Positions 3,733 to 59,771 of a stretch of 64,000 nt of DNA are shown here, in pieces. Numbering within the stretch: position 1 is the stretch's first letter; each line of letters opens with the position of its first letter. The position numbers and the translations under genes are program-made. The notes beneath the pieces are model-generated. The model saw only the letters and a program-made list of their open reading frames with translations. It did not search any database and had not been told where the DNA came from. Source of the DNA: Hyphomicrobiales bacterium (GTDB lineage Bacteria > Pseudomonadota > Alphaproteobacteria > Rhizobiales > Xanthobacteraceae). The DNA is taken from the NCBI GenBank assembly GCA_017305535.1, contig JAFKKN010000004.1:124001-188000 (forward strand). Direction: 5' to 3'.

Positions 3733-3749
3733 GCACTGTGTTTATTCTT

Positions 3750-3880
3750 CGTCATGCCCGGGCTTGTCCCGCTTGCGCGGCCGGAGCCGCTTCGGCGCGG
3801 CGAAGGCCCGGGCATCCATGTCTCCCTTGACGGGCGTGAGCCAAAGACGTGGATGGCCGGAACAGGTCCGGCCATGACGA
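3750..3880. repeat. Family-A intergenic repeat, variant long form
   Basis: The outer arms are CGTCATGCCCGGGCTTGTCCC at the left and GGCCGGAACAGG..CCGGCCATGACGA at the right, with ACGTGGATGG before the right arm. An extra GC-rich stretch of about 35 bases, including GCCGGAGCCGCTTCGGC, interrupts the left arm between TTGTCCC and CCGGGCATCCA. It lies between convergent genes and could act as a bidirectional transcript end. Confidence 0.75.
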
Positions 3881-3903
3881 ATGCAATTGACTGGGATTGC
3901 CCC

Positions 3904-4626: not shown

Positions 4627-4628
4627 CG

Positions 4629-5873: not shown

Positions 5874-5898
5874 GGTCAATCCTCCGTATCTCTATCGT

Positions 5899-5925
5899 CG
5901 TCGTCCCCACAAAGGCGGGGACGAC
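5899..5925. repeat. Family-B repeat, single hairpin arm
   Basis: A CGTCGTCCCC / GGGGACGAC inverted repeat around AAAGG. It fills the gap between the two duplicated dehydrogenase genes. Confidence 0.7.
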
Positions 5926-5931
5926 CAATCT

Positions 5932-27669: not shown

Positions 27670-27921
27670 GACCTGATCAATCCGGGAGATAGACGACGTG
27701 AGAATAACAATGCCGCACCTGTTATGACGGTGCGCGCCGGCTTTGCAACCGGGCAGCCCTCACTTCCGCGTCATGTGAGGCCATGCTGTCACCCACGATG
27801 AATGTGGTTAACAGCACGACGACATGGACCTGTACCGTGTCGCGCCGGATTTCGGTCGCGCATCACCCGCAACCGGGCTACGATCATGCAATCCCATACC
27901 TTCGGAGCCAATCGTCCTCCC

Positions 27922-29046
27922 ATGCCGATCGATCCCATTGCCCTGTCGCGCGAGTTGATCGCATTCAACACCGTCAACCCGCCCGGTCAGGAATTGGCCT
28001 GCATCAGGCATCTCGAGCGCATTCTCGCCGGCGCCGGACTTGAGACGTCGATCCAGACCTTCGCGCCGGATCGCGCCAATCTGGTTGCGCGCATCAAAGG
28101 CAACGATAGCAGGCTGCCGCTGTGCTTCACCGGTCACGTCGACACGGTCCCGCTCGGCAACGCGCCGTGGAGCGTCGACCCGTTCGCCGGCGAGATCATC
28201 GACGGCAAGCTCTATGGCCGCGGCAGCACCGACATGAAATGCGGCGTCGCCGCCTTCGCCGCGGCAATATGCAACACCGCCGACAAGCTACGCGGCAACG
28301 GCGGCGTGTTGCTGGCGATCACCGCCGGCGAGGAGATCGGCTGCGAGGGCGCATTCGAAATGGCCAAGGCGGACATTCTCGGCAAGGCCGGCGCGCTGGT
28401 GGTGGCGGAGCCGACATCGAACGTCGCCGTGGTCGGCCACAAGGGCGCGCTGTGGCTCAAGCTGATCACCAAGGGCGTCACCGCGCACGGCTCGATGCCG
28501 CATCTCGGCGTCAACGCCGCCTACAAGGCGGCGCGCGCCATCGCGCTGCTTGAGAAATTCCAATTCAACGTCGCGCCGCATCCGCATCTCGGCCCGCCGA
28601 CGCTCAACGTCGGCACCGTGCACGCCGGGCTCAACACCAATTCGGTGCCGGACCGCGCCGAGATCGGTCTCGATATTCGCAGCATTCCAGCGCTCCCGCA
28701 TGACCGCATCAAGGAACAGCTCGCCGCCGAACTCGGCGACGACGTCGAGATCGAAACCATCGTCGATGTCGGCGCGGTGTGGAGCGAACCCGCGACGCCG
28801 TGGATCAAGCATGTGGTGAAGAGCGCCGAAGACGCGCTCGGCGAAAGTTTCGGCGCGGCACCGCGCACCGCGCCTTACTTCACCGATGCCTCGGTGCTGA
28901 CGCCCGCGCTCGGCAATCCGCCGACCATCATTCTCGGCCCCGGCGAAGCCGGCAAGGCACACCAGACCGACGAATATTGCGCGGTCGATCTCATTCACAA
29001 GGCTACCGACATCTACGCGAAGCTGGCGGCGGACTGGGTGCGTTAG
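27922..29046 (+). CDS. M20 family deacylase, ArgE/DapE type
   Basis: A 374-residue zinc hydrolase. FTGHVDTVPLGN gives the first metal His-x-Asp, and YGRGSTDMKCGVAAFAAAI the bridging Asp. ITAGEEIGCEGA supplies the catalytic Glu and a ligand, and VVAEPTSNVAVVGHKGALWL the next Glu. HQTDEYCAVDLIHKATDIYA carries the last His. This is a complete set for N-acetylornithine deacetylase or succinyl-diaminopimelate desuccinylase-like enzymes, but the substrate cannot be fixed. ATG choices are 27886 and 27922; I use the second because it matches family length. Its stop overlaps the stop of the convergent hydroxyacid dehydrogenase gene by four bases. Confidence 0.85.
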   Translation: MPIDPIALSRELIAFNTVNPPGQELACIRHLERILAGAGLETSIQTFAPDRANLVARIKGNDSRLPLCFTGHVDTVPLGNAPWSVDPFAGEIIDGKLYGRGSTDMKCGVAAFAAAICNTADKLRGNGGVLLAITAGEEIGCEGAFEMAKADILGKAGALVVAEPTSNVAVVGHKGALWLKLITKGVTAHGSMPHLGVNAAYKAARAIALLEKFQFNVAPHPHLGPPTLNVGTVHAGLNTNSVPDRAEIGLDIRSIPALPHDRIKEQLAAELGDDVEIETIVDVGAVWSEPATPWIKHVVKSAEDALGESFGAAPRTAPYFTDASVLTPALGNPPTIILGPGEAGKAHQTDEYCAVDLIHKATDIYAKLAADWVR

Positions 29047-32672: not shown

Positions 32673-34349
32673 TCACCGCACCCGCTTCACCGGTGCCGAC
32701 AGCCGGTCGGTGCGGTCGCGTTCGGTGAGATCGACCACGGTGGCCATCGGCGCGACCAGTTCGTAGACATAGCTGACATCGGTGAAGTAACGCTTGGCGC
32801 TGCCGCCGAGCGCTTCCGGCGCGACGCGGTCGAGCAGGATCACACCGAACTCGCTGTCGGGGCGGCGGGTGGCGGCGCTGGTGTTGAACTCTTCCCAGCG
32901 GAAATGAAAGATCGCGTCGCGCGGATCGCCTTCCACTGTCCACTGCGCCACCACGTGCGGATGCTTGCCCACCAGCGACAGTCCCTCGTCGGTGTGCGAG
33001 GCCAGCTCGAAGAACAGCAGCGACAAGCTTTGCGCGGCGCGAGCGCTGACGGAAATATCAGGTCCGTTCACCGCGATGCGGTCGGCGTTGGGGATGGCGC
33101 GCGCCTCGAACAGGCCCTTCAGCGGCACACCCTGCCAGCGGCTTTCGCTGAGCAGTGACACCACGTTGGACATCGCGTGGATGCGCCCGATCAGCAGATC
33201 GCGCGCGACGTCGATGTCCGCGCCGTGCCGCATGGTGCGGGTGACGATCGACTGGATCACCGCGAGAATGTTTTTGACGCGGTGATTGAGTTCATCGATC
33301 ACCGCCGTCAGCCGGTGCTCGAAGCCGATCCGCATCCGGATTTCGCGGCTCATGCGCACGTTGTTGTAGGCGATGTAACCGAACAGCCCGCAGATGATCG
33401 CGGTGAGCGCGAAGCCGATCGCCGCCACCACCGCCGCCAATTCAAGCGCGCGTTGCTCGGTATTGGTTTTGGAATAATAAGCCAGTTGCCAGTCGCGCCC
33501 GCCGAAAGTCACGGTCCGCACCACCGGCGGCGGCGCGGCGGTGATGCCGTCATCCGCCGGCTGCACCTGCGGACGGGCGACGATCCGATCATTCTGATCG
33601 ACGATCAACTCGGTTCCCTTGCTGGCCGGACTGCGCAGCGCGATGGAGAATAACGACATCTCGTCGTTGGTCAGCATCAGCGGCGCGAGTTCATAGGAGA
33701 ACGTGATAAAGCCGATCGGCTGTCCGGTATTCTCCTGCAACACCGGCGTCGCCAGCACCACGCCGACCGGGCCGTTCGGCCGCAACAGCGGCAGCGGCGC
33801 GGAGGCCGCCGGCTGCTTCGTCTCCAGCGCCTGTTGCAACATCGCCTTCAGCACCGGCTGGTCGTCGAGTTCGCGCCCGGGAAAACCCTCGGTCTCGCCG
33901 TTGCGCGGCTCGACATCCATCAGCACGTCAAGCGGGCCGTCGAGCGCGGCGGGATCGAGCGGCTTGTCGTTGAAACTGCGAATGTCCGGGTTCGGGAAAC
34001 CGGCGCCTTGCAGTTCGGCCTGGGCTTGCGGCAGTTCGCCCGGCTGCAACCGCGCGATCCAGCCCGCCACCATGAAATCGGTCTTGAAGGCGTAGATCGA
34101 GGTGCGCAGCGGCTTCAGCATGTTGGCCTTGGTCACCGTCGGCGAATGAAACAGGCCGGACGAAACCCGCGCCAGCAGTTCGCGCTCGGTGAGGCGATCC
34201 TGGACCAGGCTGGCGTTGACGTCGATGGCGCGCGACAGCGCGATGCGATTGACCGTCAATTCCTGATCGTGGGCGCGATACGCGGCGAGGCCTGAGAGCA
34301 GCATCCCCAGCAGCGCGATGAACCCGATAATGAACCCCAGCCTGACCAC
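32673..34349 (-). CDS. CHASE-domain HWE-type sensor histidine kinase with degenerate ATPase domain
   Basis: A 558-residue sensor. A membrane helix lies at about 5-24, then a periplasmic CHASE domain at about 30-295 and a second helix at about 303-325. A dimerisation/phosphoacceptor helix with DELNHRVKNILAVIQSI follows, with the acceptor at His356. The C-terminal ATPase region keeps HWE-like Trp-Glu (FRWEEFNTSAATRR). The N-box reads FFELASHTDEGLSL, where active family members have a conserved Asn followed by KYGALS, and the glycine box reads SEFGVILL with Glu in place of the first Gly. It may therefore bind ATP poorly. The start is a GTG at 34349. It has no adjacent response regulator. Confidence 0.85.
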   Translation of the reverse strand: MVRLGFIIGFIALLGMLLSGLAAYRAHDQELTVNRIALSRAIDVNASLVQDRLTERELLARVSSGLFHSPTVTKANMLKPLRTSIYAFKTDFMVAGWIARLQPGELPQAQAELQGAGFPNPDIRSFNDKPLDPAALDGPLDVLMDVEPRNGETEGFPGRELDDQPVLKAMLQQALETKQPAASAPLPLLRPNGPVGVVLATPVLQENTGQPIGFITFSYELAPLMLTNDEMSLFSIALRSPASKGTELIVDQNDRIVARPQVQPADDGITAAPPPVVRTVTFGGRDWQLAYYSKTNTEQRALELAAVVAAIGFALTAIICGLFGYIAYNNVRMSREIRMRIGFEHRLTAVIDELNHRVKNILAVIQSIVTRTMRHGADIDVARDLLIGRIHAMSNVVSLLSESRWQGVPLKGLFEARAIPNADRIAVNGPDISVSARAAQSLSLLFFELASHTDEGLSLVGKHPHVVAQWTVEGDPRDAIFHFRWEEFNTSAATRRPDSEFGVILLDRVAPEALGGSAKRYFTDVSYVYELVAPMATVVDLTERDRTDRLSAPVKRVR

Positions 34350-34555
34350 GCGCTCACTCGAAAATGCAGTCGATCAAAATCCGTCCGCCGCGATATCCGT
34401 CCATGTTGATATCCGGCTCGAAGCCGGCCCCTTGCCGATCCGGCCTCGCCGGCGCGATTGCCGGCCGCGGCCGAGCCAAGCTGGAATGATGACAACCATG
34501 CGACGCGTCAATGGTTCCGCCCCGCCGCAACGGCGGAGCGGCCGGGCGCGAACGA

Positions 34556-34855
34556 TCAGAATTTCTCGACCTTGCCGTCGGAAATGATCTCGATCTCGGT
34601 CGGCGATTCCTTCAGCGGCGCCGACAGTGCCCGCCACGTCTTCATGTGCGGCGCGCGGCCGTGGGCGTTGAGGTCCTCGCGCGAGGCCCAACGCTCCACC
34701 ACCACGAACAGGTTGGGGTCATGAATGCTGACGTGGTTCTCATAGGAGATACAGCCCTGCTCCTGCCGTGTGGCGGCGACGCAGTCCTTGGCTCCGGCGA
34801 TAAAGGCGTCGCGGCCTTCCGGCTTCACGCGGGTGGTGGCGATGACATAGATCAT
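34556..34855 (-). CDS. ABM-fold mono-oxygenase-like protein
   Basis: A 99-residue protein with the ferredoxin-like antibiotic-biosynthesis-monooxygenase fold. MIYVIATTRVKPEGRDAFIA is the first strand and helix, and CISYENHVSIHDPNLFVVVE and RWASREDLNAHGRAPHMKTW are the middle strands. Relatives act on quinones or heme without added cofactor. The next gene upstream is a paralogue 46 bases away on the same strand. The substrate is not predictable. Confidence 0.83.
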   Translation of the reverse strand: MIYVIATTRVKPEGRDAFIAGAKDCVAATRQEQGCISYENHVSIHDPNLFVVVERWASREDLNAHGRAPHMKTWRALSAPLKESPTEIEIISDGKVEKF

Positions 34856-34901: not shown

Positions 34902-35201
34902 TTAACGGACGTCGACCTTGGCCGGCGTGATGATCTCGATCTTGGCCGGCGCGCTCAGGCACTTGACGGCAATGCGGCCGAATGCCCGCATGTGGTCGCT
35001 CTTGCCGTGCGGCCCCATCGCCTCGACGCTCTCCCACTGCTCGACGAAGACCATCCGGGTGGGGTCGGTGACGCTCTCGTGCATGTCGTAGGCGATGTTG
35101 CCGGGCTCCTGGCGGGTGGCGGCGATGCAAGCCTTGGCGCCCTCGATCAGTTCGGCGCGCATTTCAGGCTTCACGGTCAACGTGGCAACGACATAGATCA
35201 C
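34902..35201 (-). CDS. ABM-fold mono-oxygenase-like protein, tandem paralogue
   Basis: A 99-residue protein, the same length as its downstream neighbour and similar throughout: MIYVVATLTVKPEMRAELIE, CIAATRQEPGNIAYDMHESV and KSDHMRAFGRIAVKCLSAP. The pair arose by duplication and may form a heterodimer, since ABM proteins usually work as dimers; this is inference. Confidence 0.83.
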   Translation of the reverse strand: MIYVVATLTVKPEMRAELIEGAKACIAATRQEPGNIAYDMHESVTDPTRMVFVEQWESVEAMGPHGKSDHMRAFGRIAVKCLSAPAKIEIITPAKVDVR

Positions 35202-35637
35202 GGTATTCTCCCAAGCGTTTGGTTCGTGGAAGCGACATTAGAGCATGACCGCAACGCATGGGAACGGGTTTTCGGCAGACGTGGGCAGCGGCTCCGTTGC
35301 GGCGGAAAACCTCGAACAGGGACATAATATTCAGCGGAATTCCGGGATACGGACGGCGGTTCGGCACAATGTGGTCCAGGCCGGCATGGCAAAGCCGTCA
35401 ATTTGACCTTGAATCCGCCGCGATGCTGCGCCATATCAGCGGCGCGACCCCCTAGAATCATATCATCGGGTCCCAGCGAGCCGCGTGTTCTGAGCCGGTT
35501 ACCATATCGGCTTATGGCTTGCCCTTTCAGCCAACCGAAACCGACGCCCCAAGCACGCGGGTGTCCCAAGCCTCTCCGAGGCACCCGCACCTGACGTTGA
35601 AACGTCAGGCGTTCGTTTTTTGATGGAAAGATCTCGT
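35202..35637. other. Gap between ABM pair and DEAD-box helicase
   Basis: No convincing gene is seen. The right-hand 80 bases form structured RNA on the plus strand (see next entry). The left part carries no recognised promoter for either flanking gene. Confidence 0.5.
35557..35621 (+). promoter_or_regulatory. Terminator-like leader upstream of DEAD-box helicase
   Basis: Two hairpins lie in series. The first has GCGGGTG at 35557-35563 and CACCCGC at 35582-35588, with an inner GCCTC/GAGGC stem. The second has CCTGACGT at 35590-35597 and ACGTCAGG at 35602-35609 and is followed by a run of six T. The T-run ends 17 bases before the helicase start codon. This is what an attenuator or a separate small RNA ending there would look like. 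Confidence 0.65.
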
Positions 35638-37044
<1,407 letters not shown>

Positions 37045-37989: not shown

Positions 37990-38643
37990 TCAATTGGTCG
38001 GACATGGATCCGATGCCGAGCCGGGATTGTAGAGAACACATACCGGCTTGCTCAAACGCGGCCGCGTGTAAGTAGATTCCTTCAACTGCACGGTGGCGAC
38101 GCCCGGCAATATCGACGGCGCATAGAGATAGCTGACCTCACTCAGGATGAAGTACTGATCGGGCAACACCTTGCCAGAGGCGTCCTTGCCGATGAGATCG
38201 GTCGGCATGGTCGTCACCACGCTACCGACAGCCCTCTGAACATCGCCCCAGCTCCATTGCACCCGCGCCGCGCCACTGGTGGGATTGATGTAGATCTCCG
38301 TGATGGTCATCTTGAGCGGCCCGCCGGAAAACGGATTCTGGACCGAATTGTAGGGCGTCAGCATCGCTCTACCGATTTGGAAGAAGTTCGAGATATCGGT
38401 GCCGGTTCCTGTGCCCGTGACGATACTGCCTTGCGAGGTGAGATCGGACAGCGTTCGTGCGATTAATGTCACCTTGCGATCGATCGAGATCGCTGACGTC
38501 GTGCCGATCATCCCGAACAGCGTCACCAACATCAACGGAAGAATCATGGCGAACTCGATCGCGGCCAATCCTTCGGAGCGGCGCGAGAACCGCGCAAGAT
38601 GATACCGAAGAAGCCGGACGGATTTCGCGACGGCGTTCGTCAT
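37990..38643 (-). CDS. TadE/TadG-like minor pilin, second gene
   Basis: A 217-residue protein of the Tad pilus system. The N-terminal motif RRSEGLAAIEFAMILPLMLV ends in a hydrophobic helix, the TadE-type pseudopilin signature with the Gly-x5-Glu cleavage context of prepilin peptidases. The rest is periplasmic and contains two late Cys (CVLYNPGSASDPC) that may pair. TadG proteins usually carry a vWA domain of 300 or more residues, which is absent here, so it is a short TadE-like member. The ATG at 38643 follows the upstream gene's stop by seven bases, so the two are one operon. Confidence 0.85.
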   Translation of the reverse strand: MTNAVAKSVRLLRYHLARFSRRSEGLAAIEFAMILPLMLVTLFGMIGTTSAISIDRKVTLIARTLSDLTSQGSIVTGTGTGTDISNFFQIGRAMLTPYNSVQNPFSGGPLKMTITEIYINPTSGAARVQWSWGDVQRAVGSVVTTMPTDLIGKDASGKVLPDQYFILSEVSYLYAPSILPGVATVQLKESTYTRPRLSKPVCVLYNPGSASDPCPTN

Positions 38644-38650
38644 GCTGCGA

Positions 38651-39211
38651 TCACCTTGGCTCGACGCGGAAAGCTGCCATGGCCGCCAGCAGATATTTAC
38701 CATTCGCCGTGCCGGCATCGATATTGGCGATGCTGTACCCAAGCTGCGAGACCATGAGCGGCCATTGATAGAAGGCGCTGACAACCACCGTCTCCTTGGT
38801 GTTGGGTTGCGGGTTCTGGTAGTTGAAACTGTCCACGAACTTGCCGTTGGCATCGATCGGCGTCGTGATGGTGATTGGTGCACCCGCTGCCGTAACGCTG
38901 ACATTGACGCGCAGATTGGCGCAATTCATCAAGATCGAGACCCGACCGCATAGGTCAGTGACAAATTGTTGCTGGGTCATGCTCGAATCAGCGGCCTGAT
39001 GCGTGAGCATTTTTCGCGCGCTTTGTTGCAGCCCGTTCTCCAGGACTTGCCCGGCGAAAAACACCAAGCCTATCTCGAAGATCGAGAACAGCAGACCAAA
39101 GAACATCGGCGCAACGAGAGCAAACTCGATAGCCGCGGAGCCACGCCGATCATTTCGCCACCGCAATAACGCGCGACGCGGGGCGGCAAATGATGTTTCG
39201 GACGACGACAT
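38651..39211 (-). CDS. tadE: TadE-like minor pilin
   Basis: A 186-residue pseudopilin. RNDRRGSAAIEFALVAPMFF is the TadE signature followed by a membrane helix (about residues 27-52). The periplasmic part contains Cys 88 and 96 in DLCGRVSILMNCANL. It is the first gene of a two-gene minus-strand unit and faces a 178-base gap to the CpaC-N-domain gene. It is thought to be cleaved by the prepilin peptidase encoded at 41001 and to act in pilus assembly. Confidence 0.88.
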   Translation of the reverse strand: MSSSETSFAAPRRALLRWRNDRRGSAAIEFALVAPMFFGLLFSIFEIGLVFFAGQVLENGLQQSARKMLTHQAADSSMTQQQFVTDLCGRVSILMNCANLRVNVSVTAAGAPITITTPIDANGKFVDSFNYQNPQPNTKETVVVSAFYQWPLMVSQLGYSIANIDAGTANGKYLLAAMAAFRVEPR

Positions 39212-39389
39212 CGGTGCGTCTCCCCAGCCGGCAGGATTTATCTACCGTCGGGTTCTATCCGAAACTCATTGTTGAAGTGTTTCGGCGGTTCTGAACAAAC
39301 TGCCCCGCCGTCTTAACCATCTGTTAAGCGCGATCGCGCCTGGCATGATCAACCCGAAGTCTCAAGCTATCGATGCCCGATTGCGCCGC

Positions 39390-39890
39390 TCAGTTGGCCT
39401 TGCCGGTGGTGCCGCCACCCGCGGCCTCCTTGCTCAACGATCCGGCCTGCTCCATGGTGGACCTGAAATACTTTTCGCTGTCGCCAAGTGTAACGCGGCG
39501 CTCGCAGGTCGGCATGCAGCTATAGGACTCGCGATCGGTGCCACGATAGATGGTGACGACCTTATCGGCCGGCCCCCCGACCAGGATGGTGCGGTCGACC
39601 AGAATATCGCCACCGCGGTCCATCGCAATGACGTTGGTGGCGCCGTAGCCCTTTCCGGTCACGACAATCATGCCGCCGGACTGCAAGGTGACATCGGCGA
39701 TCAGCGGATTTCCGACCACCAGGGTGGCAACCCGGCCGGGCAGCTTGACCAGTTTCGCCTGATCGACACTGACCGCGATGGTATCGTCGTTGGCCCTTGC
39801 CGTTGTCAGCCCTGCAAACAGCATCAGCATCGCAGCAATGCCGGCGAGCATCGGCCATCGCCTCGCGGAACCCAGCCCTCGAACAACCAT
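39390..39890 (-). CDS. Pilus assembly protein with CpaC-type N-terminal domain only
   Basis: A 166-residue exported protein. A signal peptide covers about residues 1-33 (LAGIAAMLMLFAGLTTARA). The following domain, KLVKLPGRVATLVVGNPLIA with VIAMDRGGDILVDRT, matches the N-terminal domain of CpaC/RcpA secretins encoded at 42475 but lacks the secretin channel. Two Cys occur in SYSCMPTCERRV. It may help build or dock the secretin. The ATG at 39890 lies after a GGGG-rich stretch. Confidence 0.75.
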   Translation of the reverse strand: MVVRGLGSARRWPMLAGIAAMLMLFAGLTTARANDDTIAVSVDQAKLVKLPGRVATLVVGNPLIADVTLQSGGMIVVTGKGYGATNVIAMDRGGDILVDRTILVGGPADKVVTIYRGTDRESYSCMPTCERRVTLGDSEKYFRSTMEQAGSLSKEAAGGGTTGKAN

Positions 39891-40060
39891 ACGATTACCC
39901 CAACACAATCGCGGACCGCACCGCGCCATAGGCAGGGTCGGGACTCCGGATATGGCAAATATGCCGTTAATTGATGAATGAACTGCAAACGCCGACGACG
40001 CGCGACAACCCCTGTGCCGTCCACGCGCAGGCGAGGCGCCAAAACCCTCGACGTTGGATG

Positions 40061-40303
40061 TCACAACCAACCCCATCCTGGTTGAGGGAGCTCAGCTGCC
40101 GCGACGTATGAGTCTGCGGCTTGCGCGAGAACGAGGTTTTGCGCGTCGCGAATCCGCGCGCAAAGGGAATTCCACTTAATCACGCGGATCGCACCGCCGC
40201 TCCAATCCTGTGGCCTCCCCGCATGAAAAGCAGCGATACTGACAGTGAGATATAACGCCCTCGCCTGAGCCACAACGTCCAGCACGTCGTTTGCGACGTC
40301 CAA
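40061..40303 (-). pseudogene. Possible remnant or small hypothetical gene
   Basis: An 80-residue open frame starting at a TTG reads LDVVAQARALYLTVSIAAFH and ends ELPQPGWGWL. It has plausible composition but no recognisable family. A second frame upstream (40367 to about 40300) starts MQTVNFDLKTLHKIRQIDLA and would join it after a one-base shift. This could be a frameshifted gene or chance. Weak. Confidence 0.25.
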
Positions 40304-40366
40304 ACCGGGCCAAATCGATTTGTCGAATTTTATGCAATGTCTTTAAGTCGAAGTTTACCGTCTGCA

Positions 40367-40393
40367 AGAAACCCCCGATACATACGGGTTTCT
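40367..40393. promoter_or_regulatory. Inverted repeat in pilin upstream region
   Basis: AGAAACCC at 40367-40374 and GGGTTTCT at 40386-40393 with an 11-base loop. It may be an operator or leader hairpin for the pilin gene. Confidence 0.45.
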
Positions 40394-40513
40394 GCGATCG
40401 AATTAACTGGCTTGAAATTTTCTCCGCATAGGCTTCACGCCATGGTCACGGTGCTGAGAACGCCGTTTCCACCGGACATTGGGTTCGACAGCCACGTGCA
40501 CAGGGAGTTTCCT

Positions 40514-40684
40514 ATGAAGAATCTCGTCAAGCGTTTCGCCAAGGATGAATCGGGCGCCACCGCGATCGAATACGGTCTGATTGCCGCCGGTATCGCCGTT
40601 GCGATCATCACCATCGTTCAGACCGTTGGCACCAGCCTCGTTGCCAAGTTCCAGCGGATCGACGACGGACTTAACGGCAAGTAA
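40514..40684 (+). CDS. flp: Flp type IVb pilin
   Basis: A 56-residue prepilin, the structural subunit of the Tad pilus. KDESGATAIEYGLIAAGIAV has the Flp motif, with cleavage expected after the Gly before ATAIEYG and the Glu-Tyr pair typical of Flp. The rest is one hydrophobic helix and a short tail. GGGAG lies seven bases before the ATG at 40514. A hairpin terminator follows, so the pilin is transcribed apart from the assembly genes at 41001 onward. Confidence 0.95.
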   Translation: MKNLVKRFAKDESGATAIEYGLIAAGIAVAIITIVQTVGTSLVAKFQRIDDGLNGK

Positions 40685-40708
40685 GTCAACTTACGACGTT
40701 TACTCTAC

Positions 40709-40740
40709 GAAAGGCCTCGGCATGCCGGGGCCTTTCTGTC
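40709..40740 (+). terminator. Terminator after flp
   Basis: AAAGGCC at 40710-40716 and GGCCTTT at 40729-40735 with an inner GGCATGCC, then CTGTCTCT. The T-tract is modest. Confidence 0.7.
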
Positions 40741-41000
40741 TCTGGTCGGCTTCACTCCAGACAATAACTTCAGTCTCCAGGGCCGGAGCGACGGTTTGTC
40801 CAAATTCACTAATAAAATAGCGGATCGCCCGGCATCTTCCAGCGTGCAGGGAGAATATGCGATCCGGGCGGTTTGCATGGCACTTGCGCTTGCATCCGCT
40901 GCTCTGCTGATCCGAGCCGTCAGCCTCTGGTGAAACGGCGCGGCTGTTTCGCGATTGTTCATTGTTCGTCGGTTAGCCTTTCCCACCACGAACGCGCGGC
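40741..41000. other. Gap between flp and cpaA
   Basis: About 260 bases with no convincing gene. It must hold the promoter for the assembly operon, but I see no strong sigma-70 elements. An antisense open frame here lacks coding character. Confidence 0.4.
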
Positions 41001-41537
41001 ATGGACATCATCATGATCCTCGATCTCCTTCGGCTTCTATTGTTTCCGACTTTGATGGCCTTCGCGGCCTCGAGTGATCTGCTCACCATGACGATCTCCA
41101 ACCGCGTCTCGCTGCTGTTGATCGCGGGCTTCTTCGTGCTCGCAACCGCGTCCGGCATGGAGCCGAGCCAGATCGGCCTGCATATTGCGGCCGGCGCCGC
41201 CGTGCTCGCGGTGTCGTTCACCTTTTTCGCCATGGGCTGGATCGGTGGCGGTGATGCCAAGGTGGTTGCGGCGGCCGCGCTGTGGTTCGGTTTCGATCAT
41301 CTGTTACCTTACCTTCTGATCTCCTCCGTGTTCGGCGGCGCACTAACGTTGCTGCTGCTGGAATTTCGTCGTTGGCCGTTACCCCATGTCCTCGCGGGGC
41401 AACCGTGGCTGCTGCGGTTGCATCACGACGAAACCGGCATACCCTACGGCATCGCGCTGGCCGCCGGCGCGCTGATGGTCTATCCGGAAACCCTCTGGAT
41501 CAAGGCGGTCGACTTGAGTCGTTTCATCGCTGGATGA
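41001..41537 (+). CDS. cpaA: Prepilin peptidase CpaA
   Basis: A 178-residue membrane aspartic protease that processes Flp and TadE-type prepilins. It has about five membrane helices. The catalytic Asps are in AASSDLLTMTISNRV and WIGGGDAKVVAAAALWFGF, the GxGD-type pair. It lacks the methylase domain of PilD, as expected for the Tad type. The ATG at 41001 starts MDIIMILDLL, without a clear ribosome-binding site; an ATG at 41013 is the alternative. It opens the plus-strand assembly operon. Confidence 0.92.
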   Translation: MDIIMILDLLRLLLFPTLMAFAASSDLLTMTISNRVSLLLIAGFFVLATASGMEPSQIGLHIAAGAAVLAVSFTFFAMGWIGGGDAKVVAAAALWFGFDHLLPYLLISSVFGGALTLLLLEFRRWPLPHVLAGQPWLLRLHHDETGIPYGIALAAGALMVYPETLWIKAVDLSRFIAG

Positions 41538-41667
41538 GCTCAGAGATCGCGAAAAGGTCTCGTTAATCTCATTTCGATACGCGTCATTAACCATGCTTTG
41601 ACGAATAACTGCTCAACTCCCGCTACGGCGACGATTGCGTCGCGGCGTCTAGTGGGAAGTGAAGCGT

Positions 41668-42456
41668 ATGAATACCGCGCGCATTGTCGTCCTGGCCATT
41701 GCTGTCGGTGCCGGCGGCCTCGCCGCTTATCTGGCCTCGGGCTCCGACCGCAAACCGCAGCCCGCGCCGGTCGCCCAGATGCAGACCGTCGACGTTCTCG
41801 TTGCCAAGGCCGACATTCCGCTTGGAAAGACGCTGTCATCCAGCGACCTTCAGTGGCAGACATGGCCGGCGGCCGCGGCCAGTGCGAGTTTCGTGCGACG
41901 CGACAGCCGACCTGACGCCACGAAACAGCTCGACGGCACCGCCATCGCACGCTCGCCATTCGTCACCGGGGAGCCCATTCGCGACAGCAAACTGGTGATG
42001 GCCGGTGGCGCCGGCTTCATGGCGGCGGTGCTGCCCGCCGGAATGCGCGCCATCTCCACTGAAATCTCGCCGGAAACGGGCGCCGGCGGCTTCATCCTGC
42101 CGAACGACCGTGTCGACGTCATTCTGTCGCGGCGCGAGAAAAGTCCGGATCAGAACAGCGGCGAAGCGGCAGTCTCCGAAACCATCCTGACCAACGTGCG
42201 CGTGCTGGCGATCGACCAGACGCCGCGCGAGAAGGAAGGCCAGAACACCGTTCTCGGCAAGACCGCGACCCTCGAATTGAAGCCGGATCAGGCGGAAGCG
42301 CTGGCCCGCGCGCGCCAGACCGGCACGCTGTCGCTGGCGCTGCGCAGCCTCGCCGATGCCAACACGCCCGTGGCCCACGACGACGACCTCGGCAAGCGCG
42401 ATTCGATCAACGTGGTGCGTTACGGCGTAGCGACCAAGACCACGACCCGGCAGTAA
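41668..42456 (+). CDS. cpaB: Flp pilus assembly protein CpaB
   Basis: A 262-residue periplasmic protein with an N-terminal anchor (about residues 3-24). VDVLVAKADIPLGKTLSSSD is the SAF domain, and LPAGMRAISTEISPETGAGG and FILPNDRVDVILSRREKSPD are the RcpC/CpaB core. It is thought to support the outer-membrane secretin. The ATG at 41668 is preferred to a GTG at 41659 because GGGAAG lies eight bases upstream. cpaC follows after 18 bases. Confidence 0.93.
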   Translation: MNTARIVVLAIAVGAGGLAAYLASGSDRKPQPAPVAQMQTVDVLVAKADIPLGKTLSSSDLQWQTWPAAAASASFVRRDSRPDATKQLDGTAIARSPFVTGEPIRDSKLVMAGGAGFMAAVLPAGMRAISTEISPETGAGGFILPNDRVDVILSRREKSPDQNSGEAAVSETILTNVRVLAIDQTPREKEGQNTVLGKTATLELKPDQAEALARARQTGTLSLALRSLADANTPVAHDDDLGKRDSINVVRYGVATKTTTRQ

Positions 42457-42474
42457 ATCGGAAGGATTCACGAA

Positions 42475-43947
42475 ATGAAGTGTCGGGACAATCGCGGAAC
42501 ACTCGACGCGGGAGCATTGGGCGCGGTGATGAAGCAGGCGATGTGCGTTGCCGCCGTCGGTGCGCTGACGCTCGAGCCGATGCTGACGCCGGTGCTTGCC
42601 GCGAACCAGCCGATCCCCTCCGCCGCGAGCTCAAGCGGCTATCTCAATGCGCGTCCCCTGGCGCTCGGCATCGGCAAATCGGTGGTGATCGACTTGCCAC
42701 GTGACGTCAAGGACGTACTGGTCGCCGATCCCAAGATCGCCAATGCCGTGGTGCGTTCAGCGCAACGCGCCTACATCATCGGCGCCTCTGTCGGCCAGAC
42801 CAACATCGTGTTCTTCGATGCATCCGGCCAGCAGATCGCGGCCTATGACATCGCGGTGACCCGCGATCTCAACGGCATCCGCGCCATGTTGAAGCAGGTC
42901 ATGCCCAGCGCCGACATTCGTGTCGAAGGCATCGGCACCGGCGTCGTGCTGTCAGGTATGGTGGGGTCGCAGGCAGAGTCGCAACAGGCATTCGACCTCG
43001 CGGTTCGGCTGGTGGGCGACGACAAGAACGTCGTCAACAGCCTCACCGTGCGCGGCCGCGATCAGGTGATGCTCAAGGTCGTGGTAGCCGAGGTTCAGCG
43101 CAACATCATCAAGCAGCTCGGTGTCGATCTCAGCGCCAACATGAACTACGGCACCGCCGTGGTGAATTTCAACAACACCAACCCGTTTACCGCCAATGGA
43201 CGTGCTCTGGTGAGCGGCAATGCGGCAACCGCCGGCTTCGGCAACAGCGGAACGCCGGGCGTTCCGAGCGTGCAGGCGACGGTGCGTGCGATGGAGAGCG
43301 CCGGGGTGATGCGCACGTTGGCGGAGCCGAACCTGACCGCGATCTCCGGCGAAAGCGCCAACTTCCTCGCCGGCGGCGAATTCCCGATTCCATCGGGCAT
43401 CAGCTGTACCAACGGCACATGTACGCCGACCATCACTTTCAAGAAGTTCGGCATTTCACTGAACTTCACTCCGGTGGTGCTGAGCGAGGGCCGCATCAGC
43501 CTGCGCGTGGCAACTGAAGTGTCCGAAGTCAGCAACGACAACGCCATTCAGATCTCCGGGACCGCGGTGCCGTCGATCAAGACGCGGCGCGCCGACACCA
43601 CGCTGGAGATTCCCTCCGGCGGGTCGATGGCGATGGCTGGCCTGATCCAGCAGCAGACCAAGCAGGCCATCAACGGCATGCCGGGCCTGGCCCGCCTGCC
43701 GATCCTCGGCACGCTGTTCCGCAGCCGCGACTACGTCAACAACAACACCGAGCTGATGGTGCTGGTGACGCCTTACGTCGTCCGCGCGGTGGCGCAGAAG
43801 GATCTGTCGCGACCCGACGACGGCTTCGTCGCCGCGTCCGATCCGCAGGCCGATCTGCTCGGCAGCATCAACCGCATCTACGGCGTGCCCGAGCGTGATC
43901 CGGCAAACCGAAAGTATCGCGGCACCTACGGCTTCATCACCGATTGA
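42475..43947 (+). CDS. cpaC: Secretin CpaC (outer-membrane pilus channel)
   Basis: A 490-residue secretin that forms the outer-membrane pore for the Flp pilus. A signal peptide covers about the first 43 residues. GIGKSVVIDLPRDVKDVLVA is the pilus N-terminal domain, a BON-like stretch follows, and the secretin core has MKVVVAEVQRNIIKQLGVDL-like segments and FNFTPVVL-type strands. The signature end includes PGLARLPILGTLFRSRDYVN and ELMVLVTPYVV. AAGGA precedes the ATG. It is followed 21 bases later by cpaD. Confidence 0.95.
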   Translation: MKCRDNRGTLDAGALGAVMKQAMCVAAVGALTLEPMLTPVLAANQPIPSAASSSGYLNARPLALGIGKSVVIDLPRDVKDVLVADPKIANAVVRSAQRAYIIGASVGQTNIVFFDASGQQIAAYDIAVTRDLNGIRAMLKQVMPSADIRVEGIGTGVVLSGMVGSQAESQQAFDLAVRLVGDDKNVVNSLTVRGRDQVMLKVVVAEVQRNIIKQLGVDLSANMNYGTAVVNFNNTNPFTANGRALVSGNAATAGFGNSGTPGVPSVQATVRAMESAGVMRTLAEPNLTAISGESANFLAGGEFPIPSGISCTNGTCTPTITFKKFGISLNFTPVVLSEGRISLRVATEVSEVSNDNAIQISGTAVPSIKTRRADTTLEIPSGGSMAMAGLIQQQTKQAINGMPGLARLPILGTLFRSRDYVNNNTELMVLVTPYVVRAVAQKDLSRPDDGFVAASDPQADLLGSINRIYGVPERDPANRKYRGTYGFITD

Positions 43948-43968
43948 GACGGGACAAGGACAACCGCA

Positions 43969-44709
43969 ATGACCCTGCAACGACCCGTCGCAACACTCCA
44001 TCGTCTTCGTACCGCCACGCTGCTCGTCGGCGTCGCGTTGGCGCTCGGCGCCTGTAATCACACGCGCGCGCAGGACGTGACCGGCAGCATCCCGGACGAT
44101 TATCGTCTGCGGCATCCGATCGCCATCCAGGAAGCGGACCAGAGCATCGCCATTTTCGTCGGCAACGGCCGCGGCGGCCTGAACGCGTCGCAACGCGCGG
44201 AGATTGTCGCGCTCGGACGCACCTGGATGCGTGAAGGCACCGGCGCGATCATCATCGACGTACCCTCGCACACCCCGAATGCGCGTGCCGCGGGCGACTC
44301 GCTGCGCGAAATCAAGTCGTTGCTGTCGGCGAGCGGCATTCCGGCGCGCGGCGTCGTGGTGCGCAGCTATCAGCCGACTGATTCGCAGGTGTTCGCGGCG
44401 ATCCGCGTGAGCTATCCGAGAATCACCGCCTCCGCCGGTCCTTGCGGACTGTGGCCAGAGGATCTCGGCCCCTCGGTCAAGGGCAAGTCATATCTGGAAA
44501 ACACCAACTATTGGAATTTCGGCTGCGCCAACCAGCGCAACCTCGCGGCCATGGTCGCCAACCCTTCCGATCTGGTGCAGCCGCGGCCGGAAGGCCCGGC
44601 CTACAACGCCCGGCGCACCGTCGTACTCGATAAATACCGCAAGGGTGAAGGCACCGCGACCACCTACCCCGACGCCGACAAAGGCAAAATCAGCAGTGTG
44701 GGCCAATGA
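43969..44709 (+). CDS. cpaD: Pilus assembly lipoprotein CpaD
   Basis: A 246-residue lipoprotein. The lipobox is LALGACNH, with the lipidated Cys at residue 29. The C-terminal part carries a CGLWPEDLGPSV motif and FGCANQRNLAAMVANPSDLV, typical of CpaD. It acts as a pilotin or partner for CpaC. Its stop overlaps the cpaE start by four bases (ATGA), so the two are translationally coupled. Confidence 0.93.
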   Translation: MTLQRPVATLHRLRTATLLVGVALALGACNHTRAQDVTGSIPDDYRLRHPIAIQEADQSIAIFVGNGRGGLNASQRAEIVALGRTWMREGTGAIIIDVPSHTPNARAAGDSLREIKSLLSASGIPARGVVVRSYQPTDSQVFAAIRVSYPRITASAGPCGLWPEDLGPSVKGKSYLENTNYWNFGCANQRNLAAMVANPSDLVQPRPEGPAYNARRTVVLDKYRKGEGTATTYPDADKGKISSVGQ

Positions 44710-45977
44710 TCAGTTTCGAGCGCCAGACCCAGGACGAAATCCCGGCGACCGTCGCGTCGCCTGATACCGACGCGCATATTGCGCCGGCACCGCGCGTGTC
44801 GGTGCAGGCGTTCTGCGAAACGGTGGAAACCGCCGCGGTGGTGCAGTCGGCCGGAGAGGATCGCCGGCTTGGCAAGGCTCACATCAAGATTCAGATGGGC
44901 GGCATCACCGCCGCAATCGAGGCTTATCGCACCTCGCCCACGCCCAATGTCATCGTCCTCGAAACCGAAGGACGCGGCGACATCCTCACCGGGCTCGATC
45001 AACTTGCGACAGTGTGCGACGCGGGCACGCGTGTCGTCGTCATCGGCCGGATCAACGACGTCACTCTGTATCGCGAACTGGTTCGGCGCGGCGTCAGCGA
45101 CTACGTGATGGCGCCGATGGCTCCGCTCGACGTGGTGCGCGCGATCTGCAACCTGTTCTCAGCCCCGGAAGCCAAGGCTGTCGGCCGCATCATCGCCGTA
45201 GTCGGCGCCAAGGGTGGTGTCGGTGCTTCGACGATCGCCCATAACATCGCATGGGCCATCGCGCGCGATCTCGCGCTGGATTCGGTGGTCGCCGATCTCG
45301 ATCTGGCCTTCGGCACGGCCGGACTCGACTACAATCAGGACCCCGCGCAAGGCATCGCCGAGGCGGTGTTCTCGCCGGATCGGGTCGATACCGCCTTCAT
45401 GGATCGCCTGCTGTCGAAATGCACCGATCACCTCAGCCTGCTCGCGGCACCCGCGACGCTGGATCGCGTCTACGACTTCGGTACGGAAGCCTTCGATTCG
45501 ATTTTCGATACGTTGCGCACCACGATGCCGTGCATCGTGCTCGATGTCCCGCATCAATGGTCCGGCTGGACGCGTCGCGCGCTGATTGGCGCCGACGATA
45601 TCCTGATCGTGGCCGCGCCCGACCTCGCCAATCTGCGCAATACCAAGAACCTCTATGACCTGCTGAAGGCGGCAAGGCCGAACGATCGCGCGCCGCTTTA
45701 CTGCCTCAACCAGGTCGGTGTGCCCAAACGGCCGGAAATCAATGCCAGCGAATTCGCAAAGGCAATCGAGAGCCAGCCGGTGGCGGTCATTCCTTTCGAG
45801 CCTCAGTTGTTCGGCGCAGCCGCCAACAACGGCCAGATGATCGCGGAGATTTCCGCCAATCATCGCACCACGGAAATGTTCTTGCAGATCGCGCAACGGT
45901 TGACGGGGCGAGGCGAGGCTAAGAAGCCGCGCGGCTCGCTGCTGGCGCCGCTGCTCCAGAAGCTGCGCGCCAAATAG
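44706..45977 (+). CDS. cpaE: Pilus assembly ATPase-like protein CpaE
   Basis: A 423-residue ParA/MinD-like protein. An N-terminal receiver-like region at about 30-145 is followed by a deviant Walker A motif GAKGGVGASTIAHNIAWAIA. VVADLDLAFGTAGLDYNQDP is the Walker B-like segment. CpaE proteins place the pilus machine at a cell pole in Caulobacter; here the role is assumed by homology. The ATG at 44706 lies in the overlap with cpaD. Confidence 0.94.
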   Translation: MISFERQTQDEIPATVASPDTDAHIAPAPRVSVQAFCETVETAAVVQSAGEDRRLGKAHIKIQMGGITAAIEAYRTSPTPNVIVLETEGRGDILTGLDQLATVCDAGTRVVVIGRINDVTLYRELVRRGVSDYVMAPMAPLDVVRAICNLFSAPEAKAVGRIIAVVGAKGGVGASTIAHNIAWAIARDLALDSVVADLDLAFGTAGLDYNQDPAQGIAEAVFSPDRVDTAFMDRLLSKCTDHLSLLAAPATLDRVYDFGTEAFDSIFDTLRTTMPCIVLDVPHQWSGWTRRALIGADDILIVAAPDLANLRNTKNLYDLLKAARPNDRAPLYCLNQVGVPKRPEINASEFAKAIESQPVAVIPFEPQLFGAAANNGQMIAEISANHRTTEMFLQIAQRLTGRGEAKKPRGSLLAPLLQKLRAK

Positions 45978-46001
45978 ACCCAAACCGGGTGGAGTATCGT
46001 C

Positions 46002-47471
46002 GTGTTCGGTAAGCGTAGCGGATCGGAAAACGATAGCAGGGCCGCGAGGGCCCCCGACATCGCGCTGGAGCCAGCCGCGGCTCCGCCTTCGGCTAACTTC
46101 GTGCCGCCGGCCTCCGCTCCGGTGGCGTCGCCGCCGCTCGCGCCGACACGTCCGGCTCCTCCTCCGCCGCAAGACATGCGGCGCTCGGACAATTACTATC
46201 AGGTCAAGGCCACCATCTTCGGCGCCCTGATCGAGGCGATCGATCTGGCGCAGCTCGCCAAACTCGATTCCGAATCGGCGCGCGAGGAAATCCGCGACAT
46301 CGTCAACGAAATCATCGCGATCAAGAATATCGTGATGTCGATCGCCGAGCAGGAAGAGCTGCTCGACGATATCTGCAATGACGTCCTCGGATACGGTCCG
46401 CTGGAGCCACTGCTGGCGCGCGACGACATCGCTGACATTATGGTCAACGGTGCCGGCACGGTTTTCATCGAGGTCGGCGGCAAGATCGAGAGGACCGGCA
46501 TCCGCTTTCGCGACAACCAGCAGCTTCTCAATATCTGCCAGCGCATCGTCAGCCAGGTCGGCCGGCGCGTCGACGAATCCTCGCCGATCTGCGACGCCCG
46601 CCTCGCCGATGGCTCTCGCGTCAACGCCATCGTACCACCGCTTGCAATCGATGGACCCGCCCTCACCATTCGTAAGTTCCGCAAGGATAAGCTGACGCTC
46701 GACCAACTGGTGAGGTTCGGCGCCATCACCCCGCAAGGCGCGGAGATCCTGCAGGTTATCGGCCGCGTTCGTTGCAACGTGCTGATCTCAGGCGGTACCG
46801 GCTCCGGAAAAACCACGCTGCTCAATTGTCTGACGCAGTACATCGATCACGACGAGCGCATCATCACCTGCGAGGACGCCGCCGAACTGCAATTGCAACA
46901 GCCCCACGTGGTCCGGCTCGAGACTCGTCCGCCGAACATCGAAGGCGAAGGCCAGATCACCATGCGCGATCTGGTCAAGAACTGCCTGCGTATGCGGCCG
47001 GAGCGCATCATCGTCGGCGAAGTCCGCGGACCGGAAGCCTTCGACTTGCTTCAAGCGATGAACACCGGCCATGACGGCTCGATGGGAACGCTGCACGCCA
47101 ACAATCCGCGTGAGGCGCTCTCGCGCTGCGAATCCATGATCACCATGGGCGGCTATTCGCTGCCATCCCGCACCATCCGCGAGATGATTTGCGGTTCCAT
47201 CGACGTCATCGTGCAGGCGGCGCGCCTGCGCGATGGTTCGCGGCGGATCACGCACATCACCGAGGTGATCGGCATGGAAGGCGACACCATCATCACCCAG
47301 GACATCTTCGTCTATGACCTCATGGGTGAGGACGCCAACGGCAAGATCATCGGCCGCCACCGCTCGACCGGCATCGGACGCCCGGCGTTCTGGGAGCGTG
47401 CACGCTACTACAACGAGGAAGGACGGCTGGCAGCGGCGCTCGACGCCTCCGAGGCCGATATCAACGTCTGA
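46002..47471 (+). CDS. cpaF: Secretion ATPase CpaF (TadA)
   Basis: A 489-residue hexameric motor ATPase for pilus extension and retraction. The N-terminus (residues 1-65) is Pro/Ala-rich. [20 protein letters not shown] is Walker [21 protein letters not shown] the Asp box, and [20 protein letters not shown] Walker [21 protein letters not shown] is the His box. The start is a GTG at 46002 with GGTGGAG upstream. tadB follows after nine bases. Confidence 0.96.
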
Positions 47472-47480
47472 CGGTGACCC

Positions 47481-48455
47481 ATGAAACTCGAAACCGTCGC
47501 CCTGGCATTTCTCGCGGCCACCGCCATCGGTGGAATGGCCTGGGTTTTCATCTATCCGCTGTTGTCGGGCGAACGACAGGCTGAGAAGCGCCGGGCTTCA
47601 TTCGCAATGCCCGAACCGGTCCGCTCCAGCGCCGACCGCGTGCAACGCTCGCGTCGCCAGCAGGTCGAAAGTTCGCTGAAGGAGATCGAAGAGCGAAGCA
47701 AAAAGGAAAAGAAACGCCCGCTCAGCAGCCGTATCTCGCAGGCCGGCCTGTCATGGTCGAAGCAAAAGTTTTTCCTGATATCTGGCGTGCTCGGCTTTCT
47801 TGCTTTCGCGATCACATTTCTCGCCAACGGCGGATTGCTGGTGGCTTTGGCCCTGGCCTTCGCGGCCGGCTTCGGTGTGCCGCGCTGGCTGCTGGGCTTC
47901 CTGAAGAAGCGACGCGAAAAGAAATTCCTTGCCGCCCTTCCCGATGCTGTCGACGTTATCGTTCGCGGCATCAAGGCGGGCTTGCCGCTGTTCGAATCCA
48001 TCAAGGTGGTTGCCGCCGATGCCCCGCAACCCCTGAAGGGCGAGTTCCTGGCAATTATCGAAACCCAGACCATCGGCATTCCGCTCGGCGAAGCCTGTGC
48101 GCGTCTCTATGAGCGGATGCCGCTTCCGGAGGCAAATTTCTTCGGCATCGTCGTCGCCATCCAGCAAAAATCGGGCGGCAATCTGTCGGAAGCGCTCGGC
48201 AACCTCTCCAAGGTGTTGCGCGACCGCAAGAAGATGCTCGAGAAGATTCAGGCCATGTCGATGGAGGCCAAGGCGTCCGCCGCCATCATCGGCTCATTGC
48301 CACCGGTTGTGATGATGTTGGTCTACATCACAACGCCGCAATACATCGCGCTGCTCTGGACCGAACCGGTGGGTCGCATCATGCTGGCAGGCTGCGTGCT
48401 GTGGATGAGCATGGGCGTTCTGGTCATGAAAAAGATGATCAATTTCGACTTCTGA
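47481..48455 (+). CDS. tadB: Pilus inner-membrane platform protein TadB
   Basis: A 324-residue T2SS-F-type membrane protein. N-terminal helix at about 5-28, a second pair at about 93-135, and a C-terminal helix pair near 265-318. The F domain reads PDAVDVIVRGIKAGLPLFES and VAIQQKSGGNLSEALGNLSK. It forms the inner-membrane platform with TadC. The next gene starts after eight bases. Confidence 0.94.
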   Translation: MKLETVALAFLAATAIGGMAWVFIYPLLSGERQAEKRRASFAMPEPVRSSADRVQRSRRQQVESSLKEIEERSKKEKKRPLSSRISQAGLSWSKQKFFLISGVLGFLAFAITFLANGGLLVALALAFAAGFGVPRWLLGFLKKRREKKFLAALPDAVDVIVRGIKAGLPLFESIKVVAADAPQPLKGEFLAIIETQTIGIPLGEACARLYERMPLPEANFFGIVVAIQQKSGGNLSEALGNLSKVLRDRKKMLEKIQAMSMEAKASAAIIGSLPPVVMMLVYITTPQYIALLWTEPVGRIMLAGCVLWMSMGVLVMKKMINFDF

Positions 48456-56689: not shown

Positions 56690-57798
56690 CACACCTCCCG
56701 CGCTTCGAAATCGATCCGCGGATCGATCCACATATAGGTGAGATCGGAGGCGAGGTTCACCACGAGGCCGACCAGCGAGAAGATGAACAGCGTGCCGAAC
56801 ACCACCGGATAGTCGCGGTTGAGCACGCTCTCGAAGCCGAGCAGGCCGAGTCCGTCGAGCGAGAAGATGGTTTCGATCAAAAGCGACCCGGAGAAGAAGG
56901 CATGAATGAATGCGCCGGGGAAGCCGGCGATCACGATCAGCATGGCGTTGCGGAAGATGTGATTGTAGAGCACCTGTCGTTCGGTGCAGCCCTTGGCGCG
57001 CGCCGTCATCACGTATTGCTTGCGGATTTCGTCAAGGAACGAGTTCTTGGTCAGCAGCGTCATGGTCGCGAAGGCGCCGAGGATCATCGAGATCAGCGGC
57101 AGCGTGATGTGCCAGAAGTAATCGATGATCTTCCAGTACCACGGGAATTGCGACCAGCCGTCGGAGGTAAGCCCGCGTAACGGAAACCAGTCGAGGAACG
57201 AGCCGCCGGCGAACAGGATGATGAGCAGGATCGCGAACAGGAACCCCGGAATCGCGAAACCCACGATAATCATCGCCGAAGTCCAGACGTCGAAGCGCGA
57301 TCCGTCCTTAACCGCCTTGCGGATGCCGAGCGGGATCGAGATCAGATAGGTGATCAGCGTCATCCAGACGCCGAGCGAGATCGAGACCGGCAGCTTTTCC
57401 TTGATCAGTTGCAGCACGCTGACGTCGCGAAAATAGCTCTTGCCGAAATCGAAGCGCATGTAATTCCACAGCATCAGCAAAAAGCGTTCCGGCGCCGGCT
57501 TGTCGAAGCCGAATTGCTTCTCGAGGCTTTTGATGAAAGCAGGATCGAGCCCCTGCGCGCCGCGATATTTCGAATTCACCGCGTCGCCGGATGCGCCGAC
57601 CTGCGTGCGCGCGCCGAAGTCGCCGCCGGATGAGCCGGAAATGCGCGAGGCGCCGCCGGTGTCGGCGCCGGACATTTGCGCGATGACGCGCTCCACCGGC
57701 CCGCCCGGCGCGAACTGCACCACGACGAAGGAGACGAACAGGATGCCGAGCAAGGTCGGGATCATCAGCAACAGGCGGCGCGCGATGTAGGCGGTCAT
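56689..57798 (-). CDS. yejB: ABC transporter permease, YejB-like
   Basis: A 369-residue permease. [20 protein letters not shown] is the typical N-terminus, and a 100-residue periplasmic stretch follows. The EAA-like loop is [20 protein letters not shown] followed by [11 protein letters not shown]. Its ATG overlaps the stop of the solute-binding gene by four bases (ATGA), so translation is coupled. Confidence 0.94.
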
Positions 57799-59741: not shown

Positions 59742-59771
59742 CGAGTACAAACCGGGCGACTAAATTGCAGG

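Follow-up and report, generated by a model that had tools for sequence, protein, structure and literature searches.

The window considered here, a stretch of 64,000 nucleotides from a Hyphomicrobiales bacterium (assembly GCA_017305535.1, contig JAFKKN010000004.1, positions 124,001 to 188,000 of the forward strand), carries on its reverse strand a gene for a CHASE-HWE sensor protein, the sequence features of which are those of a pseudokinase (Table 1). The open reading frame (ORF) starts with GTG and contains no internal stops. Both domain matches of its product exceed the respective Pfam cut-offs (22.8 bits for HWE_HK, which places the protein in this family, and 25 bits for CHASE). The sensor part, described as intact in an earlier reading made from the letters alone (the sequence-only reading), is of full length. 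By sequence only, the protein appears to be membrane-anchored with a periplasmic sensor, as are proteins of the PhyP/PhyT type. An AlphaFold model computed with 20 orthologues was modest (mean predicted local distance difference test score, pLDDT, 65.9; predicted template modelling score, pTM, 0.44; mostly below 50 pLDDT in the dimerization and histidine phosphotransfer part, DHp) and was used for fold class only; with Foldseek it retrieved the kinase core of Brucella LOV-HK as the top match and, among the best matches, the CHASE sensors PcrK (6k62) and AHK4 (3t4k, 3t4s, 3t4j).

Table 1. Features of the pseudokinase gene and of its syntenic neighbours (positions in the window; TM, transmembrane; CA, catalytic and ATP-binding domain)
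Feature	Position	Strand	Basis
Pseudokinase coding sequence, 558 aa: CHASE sensor, two predicted TM helices, HWE-type DHp, degenerate CA	32673..34349	-	ORF + Pfam
Likely TM helix 1, about residues 5-24	34278..34337	-	hydrophobic stretch by eye; helix 2-52 in model
CHASE domain, residues 95-226, presumed periplasmic sensor	33672..34067	-	PF03924, 37.4 bits; Foldseek matches to CHASE sensors
Likely TM helix 2, about residues 302-326	33372..33446	-	hydrophobic stretch by eye; helix 296-336 in model
HWE_HK (DHp) domain, residues 353-431	33057..33293	-	PF07536, 78.7 bits
H-box HRVKN with phosphoacceptor His356, unchanged in 104/104 orthologues	33270..33284	-	sequence + orthologue alignment
Altered N-box ELASHTDEGLSLVGKHP; His452 (32994-32996) replaces Asn	32958..33008	-	alignments to HWE proteins + orthologues
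W-E-E (W485, E487), the kept WxE of the HWE G1 region; subsequent GGP lost	32889..32897	-	alignments
EFG (E500) where the glycine box GFG is expected	32844..32852	-	alignments
ABM-domain (PF03992) small protein, syntenic neighbour, no functional link claimed	34556..34855	-	Pfam
Second ABM-domain small protein, syntenic neighbour	34902..35201	-	Pfam
DEAD-box helicase, syntenic neighbour	35620..37044	+	Pfam

The H-box reads ELNHRVKN, with His356 and Asn360, and the Trp and Glu of the WxE motif are present, while the boxes expected to handle ATP are changed. The canonical HWE N-box ELATNAxKYGALS corresponds to ELASHTDEGLSLV in the window protein, where His452 occupies the place of the conserved Asn in comparison with PDB entries 5epv and 6ph4 and with intact relatives; GGP after WxE has become FNT, and GFG of the glycine box has become EFG. 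Thus what the sequence-only reading had picked out (retained HRVKN and Trp-Glu motif, an N-box devoid of Asn and a glycine box starting with Glu) is borne out by alignment with HWE proteins. Among the features of active HWE kinases the window clade possesses the H-box His within HRxxN and WxE and lacks the N-box Asn and GFG, and it shares with proteins of the PhyP/PhyT type the retention of HRxxN alongside a degenerated ATPase domain.

Conservation of these residues was followed in relatives. Of 198 same-family genomes searched, 176 gave a match at E 1e-10, and 69 of these contain the orthologue itself (68 full-length rows with 56-100% identity and one split copy), the other 107 being matched only via other HWE-type proteins, such as L118 of genome G004. 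The scan of contigs confirmed 163 relatives, and the best 80 of them, mainly from Bradyrhizobium with some from Rhodopseudomonas and metagenome bins, were kept. The orthologue set comprised 110 loci including the window's own, or 104 distinct sequences upon removal of six identical copies; the two collections partly repeat species. H356, N360, H452, W485, E487, F501 and G502 are each present in 104 of 104, and residue 500 is D in 99, E in 5 and Gly in none. Since His452 is universal in this set and Gly at position 500 never occurs, there is no local sequence error, and the search for orthologues with a complete N-box, which would have pointed to one, found none among the 104, the nearest intact protein being L118, a separate sister with 41% identity. 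A pseudogene, likewise considered, was rejected given the open frame and the same residues in all 104. As a separate observation, the orthologue is distributed over two frames in G188 (C1:5666375-5668031) and contains one internal stop in each of G169, G107 and G179.

Over the 104 orthologues, mean pairwise identity is highest for residues 445-464 (0.990), followed by DHp (0.954), the complete CA (0.878) and the sensor (0.694), so that the altered N-box region is the most conserved of all those measured. Hence "eroded", the word chosen for the boxes in the sequence-only reading, is wrong for most of the clade: there, the residues of the ATP site have changed, the phosphoacceptor has stayed and the altered box has come under new constraint. 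Four more divergent orthologues are also devoid of the N-box Asn, having His in L132 and L133 and Gln in L131 and L134, the latter two with the surrounding stretch changed and shortened; HRVKN is kept in all four. L137, a further such orthologue, consists of two pieces and is not part of this alignment. L131 and L134 belong to genomes G045 and G075, in which no close relative of the FAT-GUY regulator described below is found, and L131 gives no CHASE match at E 0.01.

The uniformity of the substitution, together with the preserved WxE and FG of the glycine box, might be taken for an unusual ATP site of an active kinase with His452 substituting for Asn. We hold this highly improbable, since Asn is present in L118 and in all 15 comparison HWE/HisKA_2 proteins from other loci (hand-picked, not random), L131 and L134 carry Gln and not His within a shortened stretch, and GGP has been lost too, along with the first Gly of GFG. 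The 0.990 identity of the altered region, above that of DHp, looks as if a binding surface were maintained, and might instead favour an allosteric or scaffolding pseudokinase, which would convey the CHASE signal via its dead CA purely by binding, the recipient being PhyR or another kinase, with His356 unphosphorylated; PMC9430884 describes a precedent in DivL, termed a pseudo-histidine kinase, which regulates CckA. Modulation of another kinase, as proposed in the sequence-only reading, is a version of the same idea. Since HRVKN never varies in the 104 orthologues while the ATP boxes are altered, and is constant in L131-L134 too, even where the N-box has changed further, a pure scaffold ignoring His356 is less likely, and we judge this explanation as a whole quite unlikely. 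From the earlier interpretation the pseudokinase thus stands, by sequence and across the orthologues, while nothing was found pointing to a kinase which it modulates.

The partner indicated genetically by relatives is the response regulator PhyR, the switch of the general stress response, with NepR and EcfG, and not a kinase. Using PhyR, NepR and EcfG of the window genome as queries, PhyR was found within 5 kb of the orthologue in 50 of the 69 same-family genomes carrying it, and the orthologue has ecfG as a convergent neighbour in 67 of 102 loci and lacks it there in 35 (102 being the loci with EcfG found or a flank of at least 2.5 kb; 13 further loci have too little flank). In Rhodopseudomonas rhenobacensis the orthologue (L109) directly adjoins ecfG-nepR-phyR. 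The same-genus genome G040 (L007) shows the row DEAD, ABM, HWE, ecfG, nepR, phyR, in which the HWE gene is flanked by the ABM gene and, farther out, DEAD in one direction and by ecfG-nepR-phyR in the other; this row indicates that the linkage between the HWE gene and phyR has probably been broken within the genus of the window. In the window genome itself phyR, nepR and ecfG stand together at C3:380,467-382,229, and HWE_HK and HisKA_2 searches revealed no kinase of these families beside them.

The protein L118 mentioned above provides an intact counterpart at the same position: it adjoins ecfG-nepR-phyR, comprises CHASE and HWE_HK with intact boxes, and is placed as sister to the window clade (support 100/99; the window clade itself 100/100) in a tree of 74 rows from which the N-box and glycine-box columns were excluded. 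To this tree 60 phyR-nepR regions of other genera contributed, hand-picked across family codes from NepR hits with some families repeated; five had an incomplete core, four had no kinase by our own profile at E 1e-5, and 51 were kept. In each of these the kinase closest to the phyR-nepR core was taken, at a distance of 0 to 3199 bp. 48 of the 51 entered the tree, L194, L198 and L224 being omitted as misaligned or fragmentary, though L198 and L194 read Asn-intact. The N-box Asn is absent in 12 of the 48 (L181, L184, L187, L188, L189, L197, L210, L214, L218, L219, L222 and L230), ten of which lie within 4 bp of the core, with L197 at 242 and L214 at 418 bp; in divergent rows the alignment may be one residue off, and L218 has an Asn one position away, making the loss there less sure. 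The careful tree requires six changes of Asn state, at least five of them forced by its starred branches, and the quick tree five, four of them forced, while long branches make single placements unsure. The change of the N-box Asn is thus recurrent, with five or more occurrences in kinases located at phyR or close to it. The tree count alone cannot tell loss from gain, and we speak of loss because Asn is the general state of the family. The intact sister and the repeated changes suggest that the phyR-locus position repeatedly does without ATP handling. As a side observation, L181, L184, L187, L188, L218, L219 and L222 form a HisKA_2-type phyR-locus group (HHRVKNN) without the N-box Asn (support 99/97).

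Published analogues suggest that the phosphodonor would be a single-domain response regulator of the FAT-GUY kind. The window genome encodes a single-domain receiver, L169 (G000:C14:502472-502846), whose PFIFATGYG fits the FAT-GUY motif PFXFATG(G/Y) as given in PMC5964349. Of the 69 orthologue-bearing genomes, 67 contain a relative of L169 with at least 61% identity, as does one genome without the orthologue (G007, 74% complete). Genomes with proteins of the PhyP/PhyT type also encode a FAT-GUY partner, and L169 is the candidate for it here. A kinase survey, which covered the HWE_HK and HisKA_2 families, found in the window genome only the window protein and a receiver-HisKA_2 kinase with an intact N-box (C14:155,761-156,852), the same two-protein set in G072, G112 and G129, and more HWE/HisKA_2 proteins in G040, G093, G144 and G159. 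Within L117 (G000:C14), positions 3691-6853 contain in a row a HisKA-like kinase frame (named by eye), a receiver protein and the receiver-HisKA_2 kinase; MrrA of C. crescentus can also receive phosphate from a HisKA kinase (PMC5964349).

Two known proteins suggest how such an assembly could work. PhyT of Sphingomonas melonis combines HRxxN with a degenerated ATPase domain, passes phosphate from SdrG to PhyR, binds PhyR and keeps it at the membrane in unstressed cells (PMC5898713). PhyK of C. crescentus, reported to have no autokinase activity, takes phosphate from MrrA, a FAT-GUY protein, and can do without its ATP-binding residues in vivo (PMC5964349). Since the anatomy of the window protein, its place at the phyR locus in relatives and its candidate partners are like those of PhyT and PhyK, we assign it the same role and think it fairly probable that it serves in the general stress response as a membrane pseudokinase, acting as an ATP-independent His phosphotransferase and/or as a PhyR-sequestering sensor. 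ATP-driven formation of phospho-His is very probably impossible for it. His356 would take phosphate from a single-domain response regulator, the FAT-GUY protein L169 being the probable donor here, and would hand it to PhyR; unphosphorylated PhyR may in addition, or instead, be held at the membrane, and CHASE, possibly upon binding of a ligand, probably gates the choice between relay and holding.

The same anatomy could serve the opposite purpose, namely a phosphatase or negative regulator, in which His356 and the Asn of HRxxN would remove phosphate from PhyR, either directly or through reverse transfer, and the protein would sequester PhyR, with no positive relay. The fully kept HRxxN agrees with this, as does the retention of the pseudokinase by G045 and G075 in the absence of a close FAT-GUY relative; and, in PMC5898713, PhyP is said to have been first proposed as a PhyR phosphatase, PhyP-type proteins including R. 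palustris Rpal_4707 are discussed as negative regulators, and dephosphorylation of PhyR by PhyT in vivo is left possible by the authors. Given that the same source reports no phosphatase activity of S. melonis PhyT in vitro, we consider this alternative unlikely.

Several observations weigh against the role of an ATP-independent phosphotransferase or PhyR-holding sensor in the PhyR pathway. The HWE gene of the window genome lies 222 kb from phyR, so that for the window's own lineage the linkage argument rests on relatives; 4 of the 69 genomes have phyR on the same contig but far off, and 13 have it on a different contig, some of these 13 perhaps just through assembly breaks. G129, of the same genus and 93% complete, has the pseudokinase and gives no match to PhyR at E 1e-40; in G164 there is a PhyR match whose position is absent from the list used for the linkage count. 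PhyR occurs in 184 of the 198 family genomes, and for this reason linkage, not mere presence of PhyR, is the evidence. Similarly, because L169-like matches (E 1e-15) occur in 160 of the 198, its co-occurrence with the pseudokinase (67 of 69) for the most part reflects the clade; these 67 were counted by identity to L169, the FAT-GUY motif itself having been read in the window genome only, and G045 and G075 have only distant L169 matches (E 5e-19 and 3e-17). The NCBIfam PhyK model NF051872 gives no match to the window protein at E 0.01 (for the receiver-HisKA_2 kinase in L117 the score is 125 against a cut-off of 750), and in the tree the HWE-type window protein is placed on the opposite side from the HisKA_2 kinases of phyR loci. 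Finally, conservation of the CA at 0.878 suggests an extra duty which a bare phosphotransferase would not need.

Since only a dead kinase and a soluble receiver-HisKA_2 kinase were found by the survey in the window genome, G072, G112 and G129, the task of sensing could have passed to a phosphotransferase gated by a ligand. In the genus of the window PhyR might then run without a conventional HWE sensor kinase, CHASE deciding whether phosphate passes from the FAT-GUY regulator to PhyR, and the dead CA with its almost unvarying His452 motif might have become a new binding surface for PhyR/NepR; we put forward this extension as doubtful.

A partner kinase nearby was sought and rejected, the genes around the pseudokinase not being two-component genes: Pfam identifies an AMP-binding ligase, a 2-hydroxyacid dehydrogenase, the DEAD helicase and the two ABM proteins, and a peptidase-like frame at 27802-29046 was named by eye. 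Over the 110 loci DEAD is found in 11, the AMP ligase in 6 and the other window genes tried in 2-3; an ABM match occurs in 80, often at a distance of some 2.5 kb, with no function proposed for it. Upstream of the gene by 169 bp, at 34494-34518 (-), lies GGAAC-N17-GTT, resembling an EcfG promoter, the consensus of which we take to be GGAAC-N-GTT; similar sites occur in L031 and L032. Matches of this kind over the whole window (5 versus 5.1 expected) are not above chance; among relatives they were found within 300 bp in 8 of 80 (1.29 expected from locus density) and within 600 and 900 bp in 8 of 79 (2.44 and 3.66 expected), in 1 of 45 phyR-nepR spacers and in none of the gene-body controls, and these counts are not used for any conclusion. 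Elsewhere in the window, 37990-48455 is occupied by genes for a Tad/Flp-type pilus or secretion system, where Pfam recognizes a secretin with a pilus N-terminal domain, an AAA_31/ParA-type ATPase, a T2SSE ATPase and T2SSF, and two TadE/TadG-like frames were noted by eye; 57795-59750 and 59968-61920 encode an adjacent pair of family 5 extracellular solute-binding proteins.

In the alphaproteobacterial stress response, the "kinases" of the phyR locus have variously been interpreted as kinases, phosphatases and phosphotransferases. In the version found in Bradyrhizobium, Rhodopseudomonas and relatives an ATP-driven kinase is implausible and the phosphoacceptor is kept, and the sister with intact boxes at the same locus offers a comparison. 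Our literature search, outside of which most subscription papers lie and which is thus weak evidence, returned no title or abstract opening on a Bradyrhizobium CHASE-HWE pseudokinase or its N-box substitution. The dimeric His phosphotransferases Spo0B and ChpT, unlike the window protein, are not known to have a membrane sensor. They are described as degenerated histidine kinases in PMC5898713, which also lists Rpal_4707 of Rhodopseudomonas palustris TIE-1 as PhyP-type; since L109 of R. rhenobacensis directly adjoins ecfG-nepR-phyR, Rpal_4707 is probably an orthologue of the window protein. The closest solved HWE kinase core, Brucella LOV-HK (PDB 5epv, 6ph4), differs in its intact N-box, ELATNAVKYGALS, and in a LOV sensor in place of CHASE. 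PhyK, according to PMC5964349, resembles the window protein in its proposed role as a phyR-pathway sensor and a His phosphotransferase supplied by a FAT-GUY regulator, with dispensable autokinase function, whereas in the window protein the residues of the ATP site are altered, and the NCBIfam PhyK model does not recognize it. PhyT of S. melonis Fr1 (formerly PhyP), compared by description, is likewise membrane-anchored with a putative periplasmic sensor, a kept HRxxN and a degenerated ATPase, in an organism with a FAT-GUY regulator and encoded at the phyR locus, as is the window protein in most relatives; unlike PhyT, the window protein is HWE-type with CHASE, and its gene lies away from phyR in the window genome. 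Because of its place on the HWE side of the tree and the missing PhyK-model match we regard the window protein as an analogue and not as a demonstrated orthologue of PhyT or PhyK: the kind is already known from PhyP/PhyT and PhyK, and the window clade is a separately derived version of it within the HWE clade.
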